Source: Oscillospiraceae bacterium
GTDB taxonomy: Bacteria; Bacillota; Clostridia; Oscillospirales; Oscillospiraceae
DNA length: 64,000 nt
Assembly: GCA_017519975.1 (NCBI GenBank)
Contig: JAFWRM010000047.1
Span: 62,001-126,000, forward strand
Reading direction: 5' to 3'
Below, in pieces: positions 8,879-53,719 of the stretch. Numbering within the stretch: the first letter of the stretch is position 1; every line of letters begins with the position of its first letter. The translations under genes were made by a program, and so were the position numbers. The notes below the pieces were generated by a model that made no database searches, had not been told where the DNA came from, and saw only the letters and a list, made by a program, of their open reading frames with translations.

Positions 8879-8884
8879 CGAACA

Positions 8885-9043
8885 GGCAGATCCACCGTTC
8901 GAGCTTCAGCTTCGCAGGGCTTGAAGCTGCGTTGGATCATGCCTTGCTTTCGACAAGATCTGTTGGACCATCGCATGGTGTCTCCACCATTTTGCGGCAG
9001 CAGCCCGTATCCCTGCGGTAGCCTTGCCTACCGGATATCTTAC
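8885..9043 (-). ncRNA. M-box (ykoK) magnesium riboswitch aptamer
   Basis: The minus-strand leader contains the M-box core in order: GGTAGGCAAGGCTACC, then GGGCTGCTGCCGCAAAATGG, then GGAGACACCATGCGATGGTCC, followed by a long paired arm and the terminator. M-box RNAs fold around Mg2+ and stop transcription of Mg2+ importers. The placement upstream of mgtE fits. Boundaries are approximate and no covariance search was run. Confidence 0.85.
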
Positions 9044-46731: not shown

Positions 46732-46914
46732 ATGACCAGACTGGATTGGCAGATAAACATCGAAAACATGGCCGGGAGTGTAGCGGCGAAGTACGGCAAT
46801 TCGGTGGTGGCGTCGGTGTTCAGACGGTACGACGCGACCTGCTTTGAGGATCTGAACCCCGCTTACTACAGCGAGGTCTTCGGGGATCTGATGCAAATCG
46901 ACGAGGATGGTTAA
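46732..46914 (+). CDS. Small conserved element protein, unknown function
   Basis: A 60-residue protein, MTRLDWQINIENMAGSVAAK, then SVFRRYDATCFEDLNPAYYSEVFGDL and an acidic end. Similar short proteins occur in clostridial prophages and integrative elements; no role is known to me. GGAGG lies seven bases before ATG 46732. It is the first prophage gene to the right of the cargo, on the opposite strand from the ABC-3C operon. Confidence 0.75.
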   Translation: MTRLDWQINIENMAGSVAAKYGNSVVASVFRRYDATCFEDLNPAYYSEVFGDLMQIDEDG

Positions 46915-46929
46915 GCGCCGACGCAGACC

Positions 46930-47222
46930 CACCTCCGCTTAACCTTATATATGTTTGAACGTCGAGCTGACGGCACGGGTGCCGCGCTGTCACCTGGGCG
47001 CTCAAAGCCCAAATAATACATCTCGAAGTCGAGTGCGCATTAGACGGCGGGATGCAATAGCGAGTTCAGGACACGGTGATGAAGACCGTGTTTGGAGACC
47101 GAATTGCACCCACCTTAGTTTCTTGCGCTCTTTTTTTCGGAACGGGGCCTGTGTGGATTCGGAAAACGCAGGCTCCTTTTGCATTCCGCTGTCGGTCCAC
47201 CCGCAGAAAGGAATGCAAAAAT
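46930..47222 (+). ncRNA. Structured leader RNA before the sigma-like gene
   Basis: About 290 bases without a gene but full of pairing. GGGATGCAAT (47049-47058) can pair with ATTGCACCC, enclosing the hairpin ACACGG-CCGTGT. A T-run near 47130 resembles a terminator tail. GGGGCCTG with CAGGCTCC then TTTT forms an attenuator-like hairpin. Finally TTTTGCATTCC (47177-47187) pairs perfectly with GGAATGCAAAA (47210-47220), which overlaps the ribosome binding site of the gene at 47223. No known riboswitch class was recognised. Confidence 0.5.
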
Positions 47223-47756
47223 ATGAAACTGAGAATCCGTTATGACGAAGCCTACCAGGTGCTTGACCTGGACGAGCAGGCAACAGAACAGCTGTGGGTC
47301 TCCCTTGACCTTGAGGGTGAGGGACTCACGCAGGAAGAGCGTGAGAAGCGTATCCAGGAAGCCTTCGACGCGAAGTACAACCGCCCGGAATACAACAACT
47401 GGCGCAAGCTGAACCGCCACAGGGGCGAGTCGAAGGCGAAACCCGGCAAGGACGAGACCGAGGACGATATCGACTCCTCCGAACCGCTCATGAGCGAAGT
47501 CGCTGATGACCGTATCTTCCGGCAGGACGAACTTTCCCGCGAGGAGCGGGAGCAGCATGAAGCTATCTGCGAGTGGGTCCGCAGTGTACTGGCGGACAAG
47601 CCCAAGTGGGCGGAGGCGTTTGTCGCGGTACATATGGACGGTGTGCCTACGAAGGATTACGCGGCTTCCCTCGGTGTCGACCCCACTACGGTGACGCACT
47701 GGCTGCGCCGCGCAGAAAAAAAGTTGAGGGAAAATTATAAAAACCGTCAGTTTTGA
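47223..47756 (+). CDS. Sigma-factor-like phage regulator
   Basis: A 177-residue protein with a conserved N-terminal segment (ATEQLWVSLDLEGEGLTQEERE, RPEYNNWRKLNRHRG, PLMSEVADDRIFRQDELS). A C-terminal sigma region-4-type helix-turn-helix follows, VPTKDYAASLGVDPTTVTHWLRRAEKKLRENY. Close relatives in clostridial mobile elements are annotated as sigma-70-like. It may direct host polymerase to element promoters such as the repeated motif at 59.5 and 60.8 kb; that link is a guess. Confidence 0.78.
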   Translation: MKLRIRYDEAYQVLDLDEQATEQLWVSLDLEGEGLTQEEREKRIQEAFDAKYNRPEYNNWRKLNRHRGESKAKPGKDETEDDIDSSEPLMSEVADDRIFRQDELSREEREQHEAICEWVRSVLADKPKWAEAFVAVHMDGVPTKDYAASLGVDPTTVTHWLRRAEKKLRENYKNRQF

Positions 47757-52104: not shown

Positions 52105-52386
52105 GTGAATGAAAAGACTATCGAGAGAAAACTCGTAAAAACGGCGAAAAAAATGGGAGGTATCGCGCTGAAGTTCGTATCTCCCGGCTTTGACGGAGTG
52201 CCGGACCGTATCGTTCTCTTTCCCGGAGGCTGTGCCGGGTTTGTGGAACTGAAAAGCCCCGGCAGAACCATGCGTCCCCTGCAGGTCAGACGGAAGAGGC
52301 AGCTGGAAAGCCTCGGCTTCAAGGTCTTCTGCGTGGACGGGACGGAACAGATCGAGGAGGTACTCAATGCGATACGAACCCCATGA
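52105..52386 (+). CDS. VRR-NUC domain nuclease
   Basis: A 93-residue stand-alone VRR-NUC protein: NEKTIERKLVKTAKKMGGIALKF, PGFDGVPDRIVLFPGG and FVELKSPGRTMRPLQVRRKRQLESLGF give the D, ExK nuclease signature. It probably acts in phage DNA repair or recombination beside the SNF2 helicase. The start is GTG 52105 after GGAGG. It overlaps the helicase gene by 20 bases. Confidence 0.9.
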   Translation: MNEKTIERKLVKTAKKMGGIALKFVSPGFDGVPDRIVLFPGGCAGFVELKSPGRTMRPLQVRRKRQLESLGFKVFCVDGTEQIEEVLNAIRTP

Positions 52387-53719
52387 ATATCAGACATACG
52401 CGACGCGGTTCATCCTGTCGCACCCCATAGCGGCGGTTCTGCTTGAAATGGGTCTCGGCAAGAGCGTGATCACGCTGACGGCGCTTTACGACCTGTGTCT
52501 CGACAGCTTCCTTATACGGAAAGTGCTTGTGATCGCCCCGCTGCGGGTGGCGCGGGACACCTGGCCTTCGGAAATAAGGAAATGGGATCACCTGGACGGA
52601 CTGACGTATTCCGTCGCGGTCGGAACGGAGGCAGAACGGAAAGCGGCGCTCATGCAGAAGGCTTCCGTGTACATCATCAACCGCGAGAACGTGGACTGGC
52701 TCGTGAACAAAAGCGGTCTGCCGTTCGATTTCGACATGATCGTCATCGACGAGCTTTCGTCCTTCAAATCGTGGCAGGCGAAGCGGTTCAAAAGCCTTCT
52801 GAAGGTCAGGCCGCACGTAAAGCGCGTTGTGGGACTGACGGGAACGCCGTCGTCGAACGGACTCATGGATCTGTGGGCGCAGTTCCGTCTGCTCGATCTC
52901 GGAAAACGGCTCGGACGGTACATCACGCATTACCGGAACGCCTTCTTCACCCCGGACAAGCGGAACGGCGAGGTCGTGTTCAGCTACAAGCCTCTCCCCG
53001 GCGCGGAGGAACGGATATACGCGCAGATATCGGATATAACGATCAGCATGAAATCCTGTGACTACCTCAAACTGCCGGAATGCGTCATAAACGCCGTCCC
53101 CGTTTATATGAACGAACAGGAACAGGCCGTATACGACACTTTCAAAGAGGATATGACGGCAAAAATCAGAGGCAAGGAGATCGACGCAGCCAACGCCGCC
53201 GTTCTCGCCGGCAAGCTGCTCCAGATGGCGAACGGCGCGGTCTATGACGAGGATAAAAACAGCCATTACATCCATGACCGCAAACTCGACGCCCTGGAGG
53301 ATCTCATTGAAGGCGCGAACGGCAAGCCCGTGCTGATCGCCTACTGGTATCAGCATGACGCGGAGCGGATAAAGGCGAGATTCCCTGTGAGGGAGATAAA
53401 GACATCGAAGGATATCGATGACTGGAATGCGGGAAGGATTTCTGCGGCGGTCATCCACCCGGCCTCGGCGGGACACGGTCTGAATCTCCAGTCCGGCGGT
53501 TCCACGCTCATATGGTTCGGTCTCACATGGAGCCTTGAGCTGTATCAGCAGACGAACGCCCGCCTTCACCGCCAGGGACAGAAGGATACGGTCATTATCC
53601 ATCATATAATCACCGCCGGCACGATCGACGAGGACGTCATGAAGGCGCTCCGCAAAAAGGAGCGGACACAGAACGCGCTCATCGACGCAGTCAAGGCGAA
53701 TCTGGGGGATTCTGTATGA
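52367..53719 (+). CDS. Phage SNF2-type DNA helicase
   Basis: A 450-residue superfamily 2 helicase. Q-like PHEYQTYATRFIL, Walker A LEMGLGKSVIT (about 28), motif Ia VIAPLRVARDTW, motif II VIDELSSFK (DExx variant DELS, about 126), motif III GLTGTPSSN, and motifs V-VI HPASAGHGLNLQSGG and QTNARLHRQGQKD are all present. It is paired with a VRR-NUC nuclease, a frequent phage combination. Confidence 0.92.
   Translation: MRYEPHEYQTYATRFILSHPIAAVLLEMGLGKSVITLTALYDLCLDSFLIRKVLVIAPLRVARDTWPSEIRKWDHLDGLTYSVAVGTEAERKAALMQKASVYIINRENVDWLVNKSGLPFDFDMIVIDELSSFKSWQAKRFKSLLKVRPHVKRVVGLTGTPSSNGLMDLWAQFRLLDLGKRLGRYITHYRNAFFTPDKRNGEVVFSYKPLPGAEERIYAQISDITISMKSCDYLKLPECVINAVPVYMNEQEQAVYDTFKEDMTAKIRGKEIDAANAAVLAGKLLQMANGAVYDEDKNSHYIHDRKLDALEDLIEGANGKPVLIAYWYQHDAERIKARFPVREIKTSKDIDDWNAGRISAAVIHPASAGHGLNLQSGGSTLIWFGLTWSLELYQQTNARLHRQGQKDTVIIHHIITAGTIDEDVMKALRKKERTQNALIDAVKANLGDSV

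Follow-up and report, generated by a model that had tools for sequence, protein, structure and literature searches.

Covariation among homologues shows that the leader immediately 5′ of the first gene of the prophage's long rightward block in the window (the whole 64,000-nt stretch analyzed here) belongs to a real, conserved, and uncatalogued family of structured RNAs in the phage leaders of Bacillota. More than 100 phage and genome records from Bacillota contain the RNA, and compensatory mutations preserve its shape among them. Its most likely role is that of a cis-acting switch of termination and translation where the operon begins, and it probably determines whether expression of the phage genes continues or is halted at their start. 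Two features, both read from aligned sequences, are new here: the loop of a terminator-like hairpin (P4) is complementary to, and covaries with, a core strand (strand A) that also closes the long stem P2, and the loop of hairpin P1 is a palindrome of changing sequence, at least 6 nt long in 98% of distinct sequences as against 14% of letter shuffles.

The RNA spans approximately 46967–47220, between a small ORF that ends at 46914 and the gene start at 47223, and its conserved unit begins near 46967–46996, at a variable 5′ hairpin, rather than at 46930. Folding of 46930–47240 (311 nt) yields −122.9 kcal/mol, compared with −93.6 ± 5.3 in 100 dinucleotide shuffles (z −5.5), none of which folds as well, and all of the stems named in the sequence-only reading are present in the sequence and in this fold. 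The long-range stem described there, GGGATGCAAT/ATTGCACCC, is P2, in which 47049–47058 pair with 47103–47111 around one bulged A. In 44 of 51 homologues, the 45 nt immediately 5′ of the core are more stably folded than their mononucleotide shuffles (p ~1e-8). A fixed promoter was rejected, as −10-like boxes lie at inconsistent distances from the RNA. Small ORFs (MTRxDWQINIEN.. or MAKxTKQTS..) sit directly 5′ of the RNA in the window (46732–46914) and at the homologous loci L002, L005, L036, L047, L049, and L103. Separately, a conserved stretch, GTAACCAATCGAGGAGC..CCGGAGTTATCTA..TAACTCCGGCTTTTT, lies 5′ of the RNA and after the preceding gene in L014, L026, L041, L076, L079, and L109, with two copies in L079, and may represent either another uncatalogued RNA family or a family of terminators.

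Table 1 Features of the leader RNA and its first gene in the window.
Feature	Position	Strand	Sequence and parts	Support or relation
5′ hairpins	46967–47010	+	CTGACGGCACGGGTGCCGCGCTGTCAC and GGGCGCTCAAAGCCC	Adjoin core upstream; position kept, sequence variable
Core RNA with terminator-like hairpin	47020–47178	+		R1 104.9 bits, E 1.3e-25; the window is an R1 training sequence
P1 hairpin	47028–47045	+	Palindromic loop TGCGCA, 47034–47039	Column pairs 11–39 and 14–37 significant (phylogeny-aware null)
P2 long stem	47046–47114	+	GGCGGG-A-TGCAAT / ATTGCACCCACC, bulged A	Encloses P3
P3 hairpin	47064–47097	+	ACACGG/CCGTGT; strands 47064–47077 / 47085–47097	Strongest covariation in the RNA
Strand A	47099–47105	+	CCGAATT	Overlaps top of P2; complementary to P4 loop
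Strand 3	47124–47137	+	TGCGCTC + U7	Could pair with P1 5′ strand (candidate long-range helix P1′)
P4 terminator-like hairpin	47144–47180	+	Strands 47144–47154 / 47166–47176, then TTTT (short U tail); loop GATTCGG, 47156–47162	94% of cells paired; double changes
P5 hairpin	47177–47220	+	Perfect 11-bp stem 47177–47187 / 47210–47220; sequesters Shine–Dalgarno AAAGG, 47207–47211	Double changes, columns 190–228 and 191–227
First gene (177 aa)	47223–47756	+	ATG at 47223; C-terminal sigma-70 region-4 helix-turn-helix	PF08281, E 3.6e-6, residues 130–168

Distant blastn matches to the leader came from Streptococcus phage Javan630 and Erysipelothrix phage phi1605, a second blastn query added Ruminococcus phage NatCom_38182, and a two-part pattern search returned 46 viral and 56 GTDB contigs. 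A covariance model of 159 positions built from 45 sequences (R1) recovers all 46 of the pattern-matched viral loci and 47 of the 56 from GTDB; the counts include training sequences, and some DNA is present in both the viral and the GTDB records. Loci named Gammaproteobacteria, Rhizobiales, Gallionella, and Salipiger are among the nine that R1 misses. Among sampled genomes, R1 matches 10 of 398 for the phylum and 5 of 295 for the order, with the window's own genome counted in both, and these matches include copies without the search pattern. Two further viral scans contributed 32 divergent members, and a third viral-contig pattern gave no matches. The named hosts are Clostridia, Negativicutes, Erysipelotrichia, and Bacilli, and a search for plasmid-borne copies found none. 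In the copy at L099 (857–1014), the sequence 5′ of P1 strand 2 is unrelated and the 3′ part is intact, which suggests a recombination breakpoint inside the RNA; the downstream frame also looks unrelated.

Across 51 nested pairs in 48 leaders, 88.8% are paired, and double-change cells number 152, compared with 51 in column shuffles and 24–39 with slid partners. Under a phylogeny-aware, R-scape-like null in which substitutions of 51 diverse members are re-placed along a FastTree tree, 10 of 39 nested pairs are significant after Bonferroni correction (two in P1, one in P2, five in P3, and two in P4), and in a stricter all-pairs version only four pairs pass, all of them in P3. In P2, column pair 50–140 changes from G-C to A-T in 16 of 51 sequences; the other P2 pairs hardly vary, in part because they were prescribed by the search pattern, and their constancy tells little in the first set. 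Copies found free of the pattern change consistently in P2, with GGGATACAT/ATGTACCC in L116 and AAAGGATAC/GTACCTT in L120. The proposal of a cis-positioned structured RNA with a terminator-like hairpin and a sequestered ribosome binding site is thus borne out by homologues that show compensatory changes in P1–P5 and keep both hairpins. A plain terminator, or the end of the upstream gene, is ruled out because the core, P4, and P5 are conserved as one unit with compensatory changes.

Strand A, which reads GAAGATG in most copies, connects P3 to the CACCC of P2. Paired with the P4 loop of its own sequence, it forms a mean of 7.4 contiguous pairs at −11.6 kcal/mol, compared with 6.2 and −9.6 for the best of 5000 swaps among 51 diverse sequences, swaps that ignore relatedness. 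In the phylogeny-aware test, one column pair of this contact (134–202) is significant and one more is borderline. The CCGAATT/GATTCGG pairing of the window is replaced by CTGATGCAC/GTGCATCAG in L047, GCGACGATG/CATCGTCGC in L109, TAGAAGTAC/GTACTTCTA in L120, and TCTGATGT/ACATCAGA in L126, and in L047, L105, and L038 the complementarity extends into the P4 stem. L038 is a near-majority copy with an altered P4 loop, and here complementarity is retained in a new register, AGATGCACC/GGTGTATCT. Strand A also makes up the uppermost part of P2, so that P2 and the contact with the P4 loop have about three pairs in common. At least five U are found in the 8 nt after P4 in 40 of 51 homologues, and the U tail is weak or absent in 11 of 51 copies.

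It is mainly because strand A has these two partners that we read the leader as a switch. Strand A would pair either with the 5′ strand of P2 or with the P4 loop; capture of the loop during synthesis of P4 would hinder completion of the terminator and let the polymerase enter the long operon, and retention of strand A in P2 would allow P4 to form and transcription to stop. We infer that termination may be controlled at P4 via strand A and translation via P5, with the ribosome-binding-site hairpin acting as a second brake on the first gene, and we consider this the best overall explanation, with a probability of roughly 55%. Candidate triggers would be a protein, a metabolite, the state of RNA polymerase, or RNA dimerization. 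Because strand A pairs with P4 loop nucleotides only in most copies, it could also dock on the finished terminator, through a kissing or tertiary contact, and not prevent P4. In predicted stability, the P4 hairpin (approximately −18 kcal/mol) exceeds the strand A duplex (approximately −12 kcal/mol).

The palindromic loop of P1 sits on a stem that is GTC/GAC in the window and GTCC/GGAC or GCCT/AGGC elsewhere. The loop sequence varies (ATGGCCAT, ATGCGCAT, TAGCGCTA, TTGCAA, GGCGCGCC, and GGTCGACC) while palindromy is kept, and one covarying pair is significant in the phylogeny-aware test. A kissing-loop dimer is one reading of the palindrome and a DNA operator is another; a search for repeated operator copies in the window found none beyond the single site. 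The P1 5′ strand (GTCCGAG..) is also complementary to strand 3 near TGCGCCCATTTTCGGAC. For this helix, P1′, the swap test gave 0 of 5000, with swaps that ignore relatedness, and no column pair is significant in the phylogeny-aware test on 51 diverse members. As the two tests disagree, P1′ was rejected as a proven helix and is treated as a candidate only. Two copies of GGAC lie 3′ of GTCC, an arrangement that is suggestive of a P1′ exchange. Part of the core is conserved in sequence as well (e.g., UGCGCYCAUUUU).

Two pairs of P5 have undergone double changes, one in 14 sequences and the other in 20; the hairpin averages −18.3 kcal/mol in homologues, and a complete reading frame begins shortly 3′ of it in 64 of 68 loci. 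The claim that the leader controls the phage's own polymerase factor is less well supported. The first-gene protein carries a C-terminal sigma region-4 fold but lacks a recognizable region 2: in its AlphaFold model (mean pLDDT 75), the local Foldseek match to solved sigma factors is good over region 4 only, and of the two regions expected of a sigma factor, 2 and 4, the protein shows the latter alone. Judged from these predictions, the product is only partly sigma-like, with a region-4 helix-turn-helix and interchangeable N-termini. Among 64 complete downstream proteins, 58 fall in one BLAST-linked group and those of L042, L112, L120, and L125 form a separate group, the N-termini are unrelated between loci, and in L118 a Rha regulator replaces the sigma-r4-like gene behind the same RNA. 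Because the N-termini are swapped between phages and Rha appears in L118 while the RNA stays, the link to a polymerase factor is weakened and the RNA looks tied to the operon head rather than to any one such factor.

The same protein comparison bears on whether the sigma-r4-like product might bind its own leader or the ribosome-binding-site hairpin. Such autoregulation would fit the single large group of downstream proteins and the conserved hairpin over the ribosome binding site, but it fits poorly with the unrelated N-termini, the four proteins in a separate group, and the pairing of Rha with the same RNA, and we think it highly improbable. A riboswitch, in which the conserved P1/P2 core would bind a small ligand and P4 and P5 would serve as the expression platform, has the usual layout in its favor, as the near-invariant core with a bulged A is joined to an alternative pairing and a terminator-like hairpin. 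The genes that follow, however, are phage regulators with no metabolic theme, and no Rfam riboswitch matches the RNA, so that this reading is unlikely.

A stronger rival concerns the operon beyond P4. The first gene begins a run of genes in one direction that includes a VapE-type helicase/primase; reading the ORF translations by eye adds a VRR-NUC-like nuclease, an SNF2-like helicase, an HNH nuclease, terminase subunits, and DNA methyltransferases. (ARAGORN also places a tRNA-Lys(ttt) at 53606–53693 on the minus strand, antisense in the end of the SNF2-like helicase gene at 52367–53719, which may be a false positive.) In Javan630, the RNA heads a block of approximately 42 kb in which nearly every gene has the same orientation, and 10 of 36 in-sense hairpin-U sites lie in intergenic gaps (expected ~2.6, p 1.6e-4); in phi1605 the figure is 7 of 31 (p 0.004). 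This excess fits a need for antitermination without proving it. It is possible, if doubtful, that the RNA is itself a processive antiterminator that needs no protein, a Gram-positive analogue of HK022 put or Tn916 canT, whose core would stay on RNA polymerase and make it ignore P4 and later operon terminators. The retention of the RNA while the downstream protein changes, even to Rha, the sequence conservation in part of the core, and the precedent of RNA antiterminators in phages and mobile elements (canT, PMC11658703; conAn2, PMC8955417; put, PMC9378689) all favor this. Against it, the terminator counts are crude, the contrast between sense and antisense sites is not significant (Fisher p 0.17 in Javan630 and 0.08 in phi1605), terminators also mark the ends of suboperons, a simple scan found no enrichment of terminator-like sites in the window operon, and R1 detects no relation to put, canT, or conAn2. 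A bolder form is an improbable one: the RNA would act on the whole rightward operon in many temperate Bacillota phages, dimerization through kissing palindromic P1 loops would make the switch responsive to the copy number of the transcript or genome, and the core would be the docking site of the first terminator hairpin.

No Rfam family matches the leader. At gathering thresholds, Rfam 15 finds nothing at the leader, and its only match in the whole window is an M-box magnesium riboswitch elsewhere (8884–9042, minus strand, 112 bits). The leader alone at E ≤ 10 gave two chance hits, and ten divergent homologous loci gave nothing relevant. With no match in these scans, a known riboswitch, T-box, EAR, or other Rfam family was rejected, in agreement with the sequence-only reading, which matched the leader to no known riboswitch. 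The lambda N leader carries nutL and then an RNase III hairpin over the N ribosome binding site. In our RNA, as in that leader, an early RNA control element precedes a hairpin that masks the ribosome binding site of the first regulator gene, but no boxA/boxB arrangement is recognizable by eye, and the downstream protein is not N-like. No description of the RNA was found among open-licence papers. A metagenome survey from 2021 (PMC8040213) mentions 28 candidate RNAs in the vicinity of integrase, sortase, or phage domains, and it is possible that the leader RNA is an unnamed entry among them.

Up to an E value of 10, R1 has no match in HK022 (put), in the Tn916-like element of pCF10 with its canT region included, or in positions 1–50000 of pLS20 (conAn2). 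This excludes close homology rather than common function, so that these RNAs are functional analogues at most. HK022 putL and putR are likewise structured RNAs in phage early-operon leaders, 5′ of terminators, and they act with no cognate protein, as the leader RNA may (PMC9378689). A defining trait of put is direct antitermination through the zinc-binding domain of RNA polymerase beta'; put has ~70 nt and two stem-loops, whereas the leader RNA has ~160–250 nt, the P4-loop pairing, and the ribosome-binding-site hairpin. Like our RNA, canT belongs to Bacillota mobile elements, where it heads a long operon and has a sigma-like gene close by (PMC11658703); it lies 3′ of that gene and the leader RNA 5′ of its own. 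Both conAn2 and the B. subtilis EAR RNA are leader RNAs that pass polymerase through terminators in long Gram-positive operons (PMC8955417), a role that our RNA might share; the Rfam scan of the leader gave no relevant match.

The leader thus defines a widespread, uncatalogued RNA situated where expression of the long gene block is likely to be controlled in temperate phages. These are phages of gut Clostridia, streptococci, enterococci, and Erysipelothrix, and include the resistance-carrying phi1605. Phage antitermination has mostly been worked out in lambdoid coliphages. If the RNA does pass polymerase through terminators alone or with a simple trigger, Gram-positive phages would possess an RNA-based solution of their own, and a searchable element would become available for annotating prophages and studying their induction.
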